Origin: Euzebyales bacterium | GTDB lineage: Bacteria; Actinomycetota; Nitriliruptoria; Euzebyales; JAHELV01 | DNA: 64,000 nucleotides | Assembly: GCA_036374135.1 (NCBI GenBank) | Contig: DASUUK010000043.1 | Location: 1-64,000, forward strand | Reading direction: 5' to 3' | In this document: in pieces, positions 16,205 through 49,174 of the stretch | Layout of the letters: every line of letters starts with the position of its first letter | How positions within the stretch are numbered: the first letter of the stretch is position 1 | Program-made: the position numbers and the translations under genes | The notes under the pieces: model-generated | Told to the model about the DNA's origin: nothing | The model's input: the letters and a program-made list of their open reading frames with translations, nothing else | Databases searched by the model: none

Positions 16205-16645
16205 TCAGCCTGCTCCCGGATCGGGACCGGGATCACCGCCGGCGGCACAGACGGCCAACCGCGCCAGGTAGTGGACCCAGCCCACCCGGTGCATGTCCGC
16301 GTGGTCGGCGGGCATGTCGCGATGGGTCAGCCGGATCAGCGTACCGTCGCCGTCGTCCTCGAGGTCGATCTCGACGACGGTCGAGCCGGGCGGCAGGTCG
16401 GGCAGGTCGATCCAGCCCCAGGTGAACACGACCCGCTTGTGGGGCACGAGTTCGACGAACTGACCCCGCGCACACATGCCGTTGCCCATGCGCACCCGGA
16501 ACAGTCCCCCCGGGTGTGCATCGATCGTGGCCTCCTCACCCTGCCACCGCGCCCACCGCTCGGAGTCGGTCAGGTACGCGTAGACGGCAGGCGGCGCGGC
16601 GTCGACGTGACGCTCGACCACCAGCGGCGACGGTTCAGCGGCCAT
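16205..16645 (-). CDS. SRPBCC (AHSA1-like) protein, ArsR partner
   Basis: 146 residues from ATG 16645. It has the START/Bet v1-like pattern of activator-of-Hsp90 homologues: VERHVDAAPPAVYAYLTDSE near the N-terminus, GQFVELVPHKRVVFTWGW in the middle and the helix-forming DMHRVGWVHYLARL at the end. Such small domains bind hydrophobic ligands; the reaction, if any, is unknown. The start overlaps the end of the ArsR gene by 11 bases, so the two are co-translated. It is a paralogue of 18546-19025, which has the same ArsR neighbour. Confidence 0.9.
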   Translation of the reverse strand: MAAEPSPLVVERHVDAAPPAVYAYLTDSERWARWQGEEATIDAHPGGLFRVRMGNGMCARGQFVELVPHKRVVFTWGWIDLPDLPPGSTVVEIDLEDDGDGTLIRLTHRDMPADHADMHRVGWVHYLARLAVCAAGGDPGPDPGAG

Positions 16646-16958
16646 CTCGGTCCTCCGTGAGGTCGGCCTCGATCGCCCCGGCCAGATCGTCCAGCGTCTG
16701 ACGCCACATCTGCTCCAGCGCGGGTCGAAGCGGCCCGAGCCGGTCCTTGTCGGTGCGGTAGTACCGCCGGTTGCCCTCGCGCCTGACCGTCACGTAGCCG
16801 GCGTCCCGCAGCACGCCGAGGTGCTGGGAGACCGCGCCGAACGTGACGTCGAACCGGTCGGCGATGTCGCCGGCCGACAGTTCGCCGTCCCAGACGAGCC
16901 GCAGGATCTCACGACGTCGGGGTTCCGCGACGATCTGCCAGGCGTCCATACGCCGCAT
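16635..16958 (-). CDS. ArsR family transcriptional regulator
   Basis: 107 residues from ATG 16958, chosen because AAGGTGG lies six bases upstream; ATG 16949 (MDAWQIVAEP) is the alternative. The winged helix is clear: EPRRREILRLVWDGELSAGD, then FDVTFGAVSQHLGVLRDAGY and the wing VRREGNRRYYRTDK (about residues 10-75). No cysteine-rich metal site is present, so it is of the SRPBCC-associated class and not a metal sensor. It heads a two-gene operon with the SRPBCC gene at 16205 and is divergent from the SRPBCC gene at 17034 across 75 bp, which probably holds a shared operator. Confidence 0.92.
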   Translation of the reverse strand: MRRMDAWQIVAEPRRREILRLVWDGELSAGDIADRFDVTFGAVSQHLGVLRDAGYVTVRREGNRRYYRTDKDRLGPLRPALEQMWRQTLDDLAGAIEADLTEDRDGR

Positions 16959-17033
16959 TTTAGTCCACCTTGAAGCAGCGCAATCCATCCATTACATTAC
17001 CCTTCGCTAAAGTAGCTACAGGAGGATCTCCCC

Positions 17034-17447
17034 ATGGGTGACTACGCCGTCCGCATGCAGTTCGACATCGACGCCGAGCCCGAGGCGGTGATGGAGGCGC
17101 TGACGACGTCCGCGGGCGTCGAGGGCTGGTGGTCCCGCCCCGTCGACGGGGCGCCGGGCGAGGACGGTGGCGAGTTCCGCATCTCGTTCCCCGACGTTCC
17201 GCAGCCGTTCGCGTTCGCCGTCGAACGCGACGAGCGGAGCGTCGCGTGGCACACGCAGGCCTTCCCGCCGTGGTGGGCTGACACGACGATCCGGTGGCAG
17301 GTCGAGCAACCCGACGGCGTCGAGGGCACGCGACTGGTGTTCACGCATGAGGGCTTCGATCCCGCCAATCCCATCATCCCGGTCATCACGCCGGCCTGGG
17401 CACAGTTCATCTTCGGGCTGCAGGATCAGGTCGAGCAGCAGGCGTGA
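17034..17447 (+). CDS. SRPBCC domain protein
   Basis: 137 residues from ATG 17034, preceded by AGGAGGAT. The fold pattern is AHSA1-like: YAVRMQFDIDAEPEAVMEAL at the start, then GVEGWWSRPVDG and GTRLVFTHEGFDPANP before the C-terminal helix. It belongs to the actinobacterial group with a WWS motif after the first helix. The divergent ArsR gene at 16635-16958 probably controls it from the shared intergenic region, which contains GCTAAAGTAGC (a short inverted repeat) 20 bases upstream of the start. Ligand unknown. Confidence 0.88.
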   Translation: MGDYAVRMQFDIDAEPEAVMEALTTSAGVEGWWSRPVDGAPGEDGGEFRISFPDVPQPFAFAVERDERSVAWHTQAFPPWWADTTIRWQVEQPDGVEGTRLVFTHEGFDPANPIIPVITPAWAQFIFGLQDQVEQQA

Positions 17448-17605
17448 CGGTGTCCCGGCGACGTGGCTGGGTCGGTCGATGACCTCGGCGGTGGACGGCT
17501 GACAGGTGGGCGAGGGCCGTTGAGATGTGGGCATCCGACGCCCATGGCCCGGTGAGGCGACAGCAGCATGCTGGCCCCTGTCCACACCGAACAGGGAGCA
17601 CCGTC

Positions 17606-17758
17606 GTGTCGCACATCGAGTACCACGTCGCCACCGTCATGGCCGACCGCCGGCGCGAAGCTGACGCGGCGCGCCGGCCGGCCGTCGTCCGCCAGAAGCC
17701 GCGCTGGACAAGGAGCGGACCACTGCGCCGCGCCCGCCTCCGCCTGCGCCTGGCATGA
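17606..17758 (+). CDS. Small basic protein, first of a tandem pair
   Basis: 50 residues from GTG 17606 (AGGGAG eight bases upstream). The N-terminus VSHIEYHVATVMADRRREAD resembles that of the next gene, MSHFEYYAAAVMSDRLREAE, and both end in RLRLA after an Arg-rich tail and have exactly 51 codons. It therefore belongs to the actinobacterial class of very small proteins with an aromatic N-terminal helix and basic tail; no function is established. It is followed 12 bases later by a perfect 12-bp-stem terminator. The conservation between the copies, equal length and own terminators make both likely real. Confidence 0.72.
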   Translation: MSHIEYHVATVMADRRREADAARRPAVVRQKPRWTRSGPLRRARLRLRLA

Positions 17759-17770
17759 TCCCATCCCCCC

Positions 17771-17800
17771 GTGACCCCCTCCCCCACCGGAGGGGGTCAC
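17771..17800 (+). terminator. Intrinsic-type terminator hairpin after small gene 1
   Basis: GTGACCCCCTCC (17771-17782) pairs perfectly with GGAGGGGGTCAC (17789-17800) around the loop CCCACC. It starts 12 bases after the stop of the gene at 17606. No U-run follows, as is common in high-GC actinobacteria. Confidence 0.85.
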
Positions 17801-17987
17801 GCCGTCTGCGGCCCTCCGACCGCAGCGTCCGGGACGAGAGGGCGGCCACGTACCGCATCCTGATCACACGGGTGCCTGCCTACGGAGGTGGGCACATGGG
17901 CGCGTGATCTGGGCAACCGGCGCCCATGGCCGCCCGACCACGACACCTCAGTATGTGGACTGCCGCCACGACGAGGAGCCCACCGCC

Positions 17988-18140
17988 ATGTCACACTTCG
18001 AGTACTACGCAGCCGCCGTCATGTCCGACCGCCTGCGTGAGGCCGAGGGGGCCCGCCGCCGCGCCGCCGCCCGCCGCCCGCGCCCGTGGGCACGCCGCCG
18101 GCCACGGCTGGGACTTCGCCCCCGCCTTCGCCTGGCCTGA
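17988..18140 (+). CDS. Small basic protein, second of a tandem pair
   Basis: 50 residues from ATG 17988, with GAGGAG ten bases upstream. It is a paralogue of the gene at 17606: same length, same N-terminal pattern (SHFEYYAAAVMSDRLREAEG) and the same RLRLA end, with an Arg/Ala/Pro-rich tail. The leader regions are also related: both contain a CCGGCGCCCATGG- or CGACGCCCATGG-like stretch about 70 bases upstream. A separate hairpin terminator follows directly. So the whole unit, leader plus gene plus terminator, appears duplicated. Function unknown; the amphipathic helix with basic tail could contact nucleic acid or membrane. Confidence 0.75.
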   Translation: MSHFEYYAAAVMSDRLREAEGARRRAAARRPRPWARRRPRLGLRPRLRLA

Positions 18141-18142
18141 TC

Positions 18143-18172
18143 CGACGACCCCTCCCGGTTGAGGGGTCGTCG
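18143..18172 (+). terminator. Intrinsic-type terminator hairpin after small gene 2
   Basis: CGACGACCCCTC (18143-18154) pairs perfectly with GAGGGGTCGTCG (18161-18172) around the loop CCGGTT, directly after the stop at 18140. The architecture (12-bp stem, 6-base loop) equals that after the first copy although the sequence differs, which points to selection for termination. Confidence 0.85.
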
Positions 18173-18214: not shown

Positions 18215-18553
18215 GTGAGTGCTGAACCAGCTGACGTGGCGGCAGACGACATCGCACTGCGCGCGATCGCACATCCCGGTCGGCGACGCATGCTGCGGCT
18301 GGTGTGGGACGCCGAGCGGACATCGACCGATCTTGCCGAACGGACCGGCATGTCGCGCCCGGCGACGAGCCAGCACCTGCGGGTCCTGCGTGACGCGGAC
18401 CTCGTCGATGTGCGCGTCGACGGCAATCGCCGGTGGTACCGGGCCGATCGGCGGAGCCTCGCCCGCATCCGCGTGCTGATCGAGGCCTTCTGGGACGACC
18501 GGCTCGCTGCGCTGCAGGCCGCAGCCGAGGCGGAGGCGCAGCGCCGTGCCTGA
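18215..18553 (+). CDS. ArsR family transcriptional regulator
   Basis: 112 residues from GTG 18215. The winged helix shows AIAHPGRRRMLRLVWDAERT, then RTGMSRPATSQHLRVLRDAD and VRVDGNRRWYRADR; the C-terminal helix is IEAFWDDRLAALQAAAEAEA. It is a paralogue of the regulator at 16635 and, like it, sits directly before an SRPBCC gene, overlapping that gene by eight bases. No metal-binding cysteines are present. It probably represses its own operon (18215-19025 and perhaps 19498) through the direct repeats at the start codon. Confidence 0.92.
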   Translation: MSAEPADVAADDIALRAIAHPGRRRMLRLVWDAERTSTDLAERTGMSRPATSQHLRVLRDADLVDVRVDGNRRWYRADRRSLARIRVLIEAFWDDRLAALQAAAEAEAQRRA

Positions 18554-19025
18554 CGTCGTCGTGCGGCGCAACATCGCCGCGCCGCCGGAGATCGTGTTCG
18601 CGATGTTCACCGATCCGGCCTTGCTCGTCCGGTGGCTGGGTGACACGGCCGAGCTCGACCCGGTCCCCGGTGGGGTGTTCCGCTTCACGCTCGCCGACCA
18701 GGACGCGTGCCGCGGCCACTTCGTCGAGCTCGACCCGCCGAACCGTCTGGTCTTCACGTGGGGGTGGGAGCGCGCCGAGGCGATCCCCGTGCCGGCCGGG
18801 TCGACGGAGGTGACGGTCGAGCTGACCGCGACCGATCACGGCACCCACGTGACGCTGACCCACCGGGGCCTCGACGGCGACGCTGCGACGCTGCATTCCC
18901 ACGGCTGGGACCGGTTCCTCGCTCGGTTGCGCGCGGTCGTGGGTGGCGCCGAGCCGGGACCCGATCCGTGGCACGAGCAGCCGGACGACGTGCTGGCCAG
19001 GATTCCCAACGAACCATCGGCCTGA
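18546..19025 (+). CDS. SRPBCC (AHSA1-like) protein, ArsR partner
   Basis: 159 residues from GTG 18546. It aligns by eye with the protein at 16205: GHFVELDPPNRLVFTWGWER corresponds to GQFVELVPHKRVVFTWGW, and SHGWDRFLARLRAVVGG to RVGWVHYLARLAV; both end in a GPDP motif. The AHSA1 fold binds hydrophobic ligands; activity unknown. It overlaps the upstream arsR gene and is followed 38 bases later by another SRPBCC gene, so three genes may be one transcript. Confidence 0.9.
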   Translation: MPDVVVRRNIAAPPEIVFAMFTDPALLVRWLGDTAELDPVPGGVFRFTLADQDACRGHFVELDPPNRLVFTWGWERAEAIPVPAGSTEVTVELTATDHGTHVTLTHRGLDGDAATLHSHGWDRFLARLRAVVGGAEPGPDPWHEQPDDVLARIPNEPSA

Positions 19026-48984: not shown

Positions 48985-49174
48985 GAGCGTGCGAGCTCGC
49001 TGGCGACGCTGACCGGGTCGCCCTCGACGTAGGTCGCGCCTACCCACCGACGAACTGTTCGCGCGCGAGGGGCCGTCCCACCTGGTACTGATCACATGTG
49101 GCGGCGACTTCGACAGCGCGGCGGGTTCGTACCGGGCCAACGTCGTCATCCACGCACAGCCCTCCTCGGCCTAG
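48985..49174 (+). pseudogene. C-terminal remnant of a sortase
   Basis: From 49040 the plus strand reads LPTDELFAREGPSHLVLITC then GGDFDSAAGSYRANVVIHAQ before a TAG at 49172: the LxTC catalytic-cysteine strand and the C-terminal strand of a class E/F-type sortase, with the RANVVIHA-like end. Just upstream the neighbouring frame gives ELAGDADRVALDVGRAYP, a plausible preceding strand, so a frameshift separates the two. The catalytic His and the N-terminal half are gone. The stop overlaps that of the minus-strand TetR gene. Confidence 0.65.

Follow-up and report, generated by a model that had tools for sequence, protein, structure and literature searches.

Two tandem genes for small arginine-rich proteins in a Euzebyales bacterium and their possible kinship with a wider actinobacterial class

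Two small tandem genes of a Euzebyales bacterium, called A and B here, almost certainly encode real proteins, as comparison with related genomes indicates. They belong to a genuine, so far unannotated small-protein family of one genus. Small basic proteins of this kind have no family name and are easily overlooked. Our fuller reading combines paralogous protein genes, a wider class to which they are related and a regulatory role through binding to a partner; as a composite, it is one towards which we lean slightly. The genes lie in the window, i.e. the whole 64,000-nucleotide stretch of DNA analysed, which comes from a draft genome (3.98 Mb, 115 contigs, 96% complete). This genome was compared with three congeners (G001, G002 and G003), all of them drafts.

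The small genes and the evidence for selection

Gene A occupies positions 17606–17758 of the plus strand, starts with GTG and encodes MSHIEYHVATVMADRRREADAARRPAVVRQKPRWTRSGPLRRARLRLRLA; gene B (17988–18140, plus strand) starts with ATG and encodes MSHFEYYAAAVMSDRLREAEGARRRAAARRPRPWARRRPRLGLRPRLRLA. Each consists of 50 amino acids and a stop, matching the 51 codons counted by the first-pass annotation, which had also described the ends of the products correctly: the N-terminal pattern SHxEYxxAxVMxDRxREA fits both, and both finish in RLRLA. Shine-Dalgarno sequences can be read on the same strand before A (AGGGAG, 17593–17598) and before B (GAGGAG, 17973–17978). Within its own genome, B finds A with an E value of 3e-8 and 52% identity, and the next match lies at 0.02. 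The products are strongly basic, with a pI of 12 and 13–15 arginines.

Six-frame searches gave a family of six members, found solely in the window's genus. Besides A and B, these are a B ortholog in G003 (72% identity), an A ortholog with the same neighbours in G002 (G002:C166) and the paralogs G002:C31 and G002:C128. The sample is therefore six sequences from one genus, one of which adjoins a contig end. All are stand-alone genes of 49–51 amino acids with an N-terminus of the type MSHxEYxxxxVMxDRxREAxxxRR and a C-terminus of the form RxRxA (RLRLA, RLRLA, RVRYA, RVRPA, RPRIA and RPRPA), and in all six a start codon follows a purine-rich Shine-Dalgarno sequence at the usual spacing. Searches further afield added no members. 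In particular, a collection of genome contigs gave no match to protein B alone and only G003's own contig to the N-terminal profile, plasmid and viral collections held no family member, and a class-wide profile search returned no further significant one. Pfam has no family matching A or B, NCBIfam and PHROGs matched none of the six members, and the single Pfam match of the member G002c, to HIRAN, falls below threshold (12.8 bits against a cut-off of 24.7).

The reading frame was assessed with a codon-frame test, in which the observed substitutions are redistributed at random over the sequence, with substitution types kept, and the BLOSUM similarity of the translations is scored. In the real frame, over 50 codons, not one of 5,000 null draws equalled the comparison of A with G002, and the same held for B with G003; the +1 and +2 forward frames showed no effect (P > 0.16). 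One antisense frame also shows an effect, as would be expected of a frame that shares its third codon positions with the sense frame. Paralog pairs gave a weaker signal, mostly in the same direction. The substitutions between orthologs favour this frame and not the shifted forward frames, which makes it most likely that A and B are small proteins that are expressed and maintained by selection. The first-pass annotation had proposed such selection, with neutral drift and lack of frame conservation as the contrary outcome; the orthologs in two congeners and the codon-frame test bear out its proposal, and conservation of the reading frames is what was found.

Flanking elements and the history of the locus

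Each gene is preceded by a leader element, located 79 bp 5' of the start codon on the plus strand: GTGGGCATCCGACGCCCATGGC for A (17527–17548) and CTGGGCAACCGGCGCCCATGGC for B (17909–17930). The two elements are alike at 19 of 22 bases, compared with 23 of 57 in the remaining leader, so that the shared leader stretch noticed earlier is larger than had been claimed and lies at the same distance in both. In five of the six members, a consensus GTRGGYA-N6-RCCCRTGGC, full or weakened, is found at a distance of 76–79 bp upstream of the start codon, G002c being the member without it. Inside the element of A is an inverted repeat, TGGGC-N7-GCCCA; in the form TRGGY-N7-RCCCA the repeat is present in both A and B and nearly so in G003. 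We infer that the element is a promoter or operator. No sigma-70-like promoter was matched in the region. Across the four genomes of the genus, the leader pattern elsewhere is about as frequent as a reversed control and marks no gene beyond chance, and in a regulon search none of 10 extra matches precedes a recognisable related small gene. The window holds one TRGGY-N7-RCCCA match besides the two leaders, at 49030–49046.

Behind each gene lies a strong hairpin, again on the plus strand. The earlier description of a perfect 12-bp stem with a 6-base loop after each gene is exact for B (18143–18172), but the stem of A (17770–17801), likewise perfect and with a 6-nt loop, has 13 bp. Five distinct perfect stems of at least 12 bp with loops of 3–8 occur in the 64 kb, compared with 0–1 in block shuffles, and the fold z-scores of the two trailer hairpins are −4.9 and −3.4. 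Neither the A hairpin nor the B hairpin is followed by a T run. Because of their position and strength, they are labelled as probable terminators (or, for A, a 3' end). With a leader element, a ribosome-binding site, a 50-codon frame and a trailer hairpin of its own, each gene would most likely give rise to a separate small mRNA.

Strong hairpins, compact units of about 260 nt and a leader element more conserved than the rest of the leader could also be expected of a regulatory small RNA in which the reading frame is incidental or a decoy. This explanation is very improbable: it is largely refuted by the codon test, where substitutions respect the real frame and not +1 or +2, and it sits poorly with a Shine-Dalgarno sequence and start codon in every member, with a protein pattern that persists in G002c when the leader element does not, and with the lack of any match to a structured-RNA family in Rfam.

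The pair was placed by the first-pass annotation between two ArsR-SRPBCC modules, and Pfam matches do identify such genes on each side. Upstream, on the minus strand, lie an SRPBCC (AHSA1) gene (SRPBCC1, 16205–16645, PF08327), which is truncated in G003 and G001, and an ArsR-family regulator (ArsR1, 16635–16988, PF01022). An AHSA1-like SRPBCC gene (SRPBCC2, 17034–17447, PF08327) follows on the plus strand 5' of A, outside the unit. Downstream of B, and on the same strand as the pair, are a second ArsR-family regulator (ArsR2, 18215–18553, PF01022) and a further SRPBCC (AHSA1) gene (SRPBCC3, 18546–19025, PF08327).

Over 50 ungapped positions, A shares 33 identical residues with its G002 ortholog (G002a) and B shares 36 with its G003 ortholog, compared with 27 between A and B and 21–23 for the cross pairs. 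Orthologs are thus more alike than paralogs, which argues that the duplication giving A and B took place before these species separated. The subsequent history, read from draft genomes in which assembly errors are possible, differs from one congener to the next. At the same locus, G002 has a single A-type copy flanked by the same SRPBCC and ArsR genes; in G002, this gene order shows the synteny with the ArsR genes that had been suggested as a check. The G002 copy carries a trailer hairpin like that of B, and a deletion between tandem copies, which we infer here, would leave just such a hairpin behind an A-type gene. In G003, ArsR1, SRPBCC2, ArsR2 and SRPBCC3 are lost and B stands directly after the truncated SRPBCC gene. 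G001 has lost both small genes and retains a near-identical B-type hairpin before ArsR2; no other copy was found in this genome (87% complete), so that the small gene may be dispensable. The tandem arrangement is therefore real in this genome but is not a conserved state, given one copy at the locus in G002, one in G003 and the hairpin alone in G001. A candidate remnant of the last codons of B in G001 (RIRFA-stop) was dropped, as the same bases can be read as the antisense of the truncated SRPBCC gene; our claim for G001 is limited to the trailer hairpin. As a separate observation, SRPBCC1 breaks off at almost the same codon, ahead of HKR, in both G003 and G001 (L038 6816–10484 and L097 6470–7877). 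Beyond the cut, different genes are deleted in the two genomes, and the G001 copy seems frameshifted; the common cut may be an old shared deletion, a hotspot or an assembly effect.

Most of both ArsR-SRPBCC modules is lost in G003, yet B and its leader persist there, which suggests that the small genes are units independent of their neighbours and makes the placement between the modules non-essential. The same observation weighs on another explanation, in which A and B are leader peptides whose translation attenuates the downstream ArsR-SRPBCC operon. Short frames followed by hairpins and then by ArsR2 on the same strand are what such a system would look like. Yet G003 keeps B with its leader in the absence of both ArsR2 and SRPBCC3, G002 also has copies that adjoin unrelated genes, and what is conserved is the amino acids of the entire peptide and not a run of one codon. 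Moreover, ArsR2 seems to be served by a promoter-like sequence of its own, immediately ahead of the start codon. Taken together, attenuation is highly unlikely, and we retain the reading of A and B as independent protein genes.

Predicted structure and a possible mode of action

AlphaFold2, run with a five-row alignment, predicts one helix spanning residues 3–29, with a mean pLDDT of 90 for residues 1–10 and 94 for residues 11–20. The tail is predicted with low confidence (pLDDT 53–60) and has a net charge of +7 to +11. The helix shows no significant amphipathicity, for which reason a claim of an amphipathic helix was dropped; this result lends no direct support to a docking face. The combination of a short helix and a cationic, probably disordered tail would suit docking on a partner better than enzymatic activity.

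Arginine- and proline-rich composition and a pI of 12 could also suggest an antimicrobial or toxin-like role, as small cationic peptides directed against membranes or other bacteria, and we take the tail RPRPWARRRPRL to resemble proline-arginine-rich peptides. On the other hand, the sequence has no signal peptide, no transport or immunity gene was recognised adjoining A or B, and the conserved part is the helix, which contains acidic residues and is not significantly amphipathic. An antimicrobial or toxin-like function is unlikely on these grounds.

The mechanism we propose for a docking protein is as follows. Expression would be switched at the conserved leader element, either by a regulator or by an alternative sigma factor. 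The product would be a helix with an arginine tail and without a fold of its own. Its helix would dock on a protein and its tail on an acidic surface, which could be nucleic acid, RNA polymerase or the adjacent regulator, and the docked small protein would then tune expression. That is, A and B may be conditionally made helix-plus-tail proteins that bind an acidic partner, possibly the transcription machinery; the regulator context described below suggests a part in transcription control. We hold this partner-binding regulatory role to be possible but doubtful.

There is a known example of such a protein acting on transcription. CrsL (MSMEG_5890 / Rv3489), a disordered protein of 5.7 kDa from actinobacteria, interacts with CarD and RNA polymerase and is marked by a highly conserved MLGIGP stretch (PMC12709188). 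The A and B proteins are like CrsL in size and in their probable lack of a fold of their own, but the MLGIGP motif is absent from both on inspection, and no homology is claimed.

A wider class of small genes beside regulators

Two weak matches, in G018 and G001, proved to be small genes built in a similar way; relatives of the G001 gene occur in each of the other three genomes of the genus. From these matches a wider set was assembled across several actinobacterial families. Its members are basic proteins of 50–80 amino acids with an M-H-P start, a helix motif [DE]xxREAxxxR (also used as [DE]RxREAxxxR) and an R..lG..L...G.rLA end; neither Pfam nor NCBIfam has a model for the two members tested. 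The A/B family resembles the class in size, basic character, the N-terminal REAxxxR helix motif and organisation as stand-alone small genes adjoining regulators. It differs in that the HP start is absent, as is most of the hydrophobic segment at the C-terminus, in its more arginine-rich tail with an RxRxA end, and in that A and B are not divergent from a regulator gene.

With statistics somewhat favoured by seeds that had been noticed via a shared DRxREA, a profile from four members of other families scored A, B, G003, G002a and G002b so well that only 0–5 of 2,000 composition-matched shuffles did as well as each of them, and for G002c 30 of 2,000 shuffles were as good. A profile-profile comparison of the A/B family with the N-terminal helix of the wider class (hhalign) gave 84% probability over 24 columns. 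We grade the similarity as moderate because of the way the seeds came to notice. The A/B family is probably a branch of this wider unannotated actinobacterial class; since A and B are not divergent from a regulator, only their sequence places them near it, and we do not count them as full members.

Regulators recur beside the wider-class genes. A CGNR/ABATE gene lies divergently upstream at ten loci (G000:C69, G001:C191, G001:C51, G002:C208, G018, G095, G119, G140, G072 and G108), a tally made over the wider-class loci themselves, in which G001:C191 and G001:C51 were called by sequence motif and G108 by a zf-CGNR match and position. The divergent neighbour is a DUF5937-ArsR protein in G035 and a DJ-1/AraC-type regulator in G150; the G077 gene faces a hydrolase, and no regulator was recognised beside the small gene of G153. 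CGNR genes are rare (39 matches in 14 genomes), and the sole one found in the window's genome is divergent from a wider-class small gene. The converse association fails: of the CGNR loci surveyed, only 3 of 30 have a recognisable small gene. Two members of the A/B family have regulators nearby: G002:C128 stands in divergent orientation to a BTAD/NB-ARC regulator, and a PadR gene lies downstream of G002:C31; no divergent regulator gene adjoins A or B in the window. The CGNR/ABATE regulators (PF11706 and PF07336, with a structure in PMC2954205), for which an unknown ligand and a stress role have been proposed (PMC2954205), are neighbours of the small genes and not the small proteins themselves.

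These neighbours also bear on a plainer explanation, namely that A and B are generic basic proteins associated with nucleic acids or ribosomes, with a housekeeping function unconnected with regulators. Charge, size and a low-confidence tail would fit, as would the lack of divergent pairing of A and B with regulators. A housekeeping protein would not be expected, however, to show patchy presence with loss in G001, to be confined to one genus and to have wider-class relatives adjoining regulators, and we consider this explanation rather unlikely.

The broadest form of our own reading is more speculative than the class assignment: we regard it as conceivable, while leaning against it, that A and B are part of a widespread, unannotated group of basic helix-plus-tail proteins of actinobacteria, with each protein controlled by a neighbouring one-component regulator (CGNR/ABATE, ArsR-like, AraC-like or SARP), in a recurrent 'regulator plus small basic effector' module acting on transcription or on the regulator itself. 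If the wider class is true, CGNR/ABATE-type regulators of unknown purpose gain an obvious target gene, and the obvious test of the small protein is feedback on its regulator or on RNA polymerase. The regulator link of the class is a more interesting lead than the genus-level family.

Some further features of the wider-class loci can be described. The intergenic regions between CGNR/ABATE and small genes share a CACTTGACnCCTTAC ... GTGTAA-like pattern before the small gene, likely a common promoter or operator (G000:C69:18570 (L168), L108, L167, L169, L109, L141 and L148). In several wider-class small genes, the stop overlaps (TGATG) with the start of a second frame, M.VWCD.C..., possibly a small zinc-ribbon protein (G002:C208 L169, G001:C191 L108, G001:C51 L167 and G003:C26 L109). 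Finally, a conserved gene with the pattern EFTEWA..IL.R.HEAARRFNP lies 3' of the small gene in two genomes, G072 and G153 (L198 and L200).
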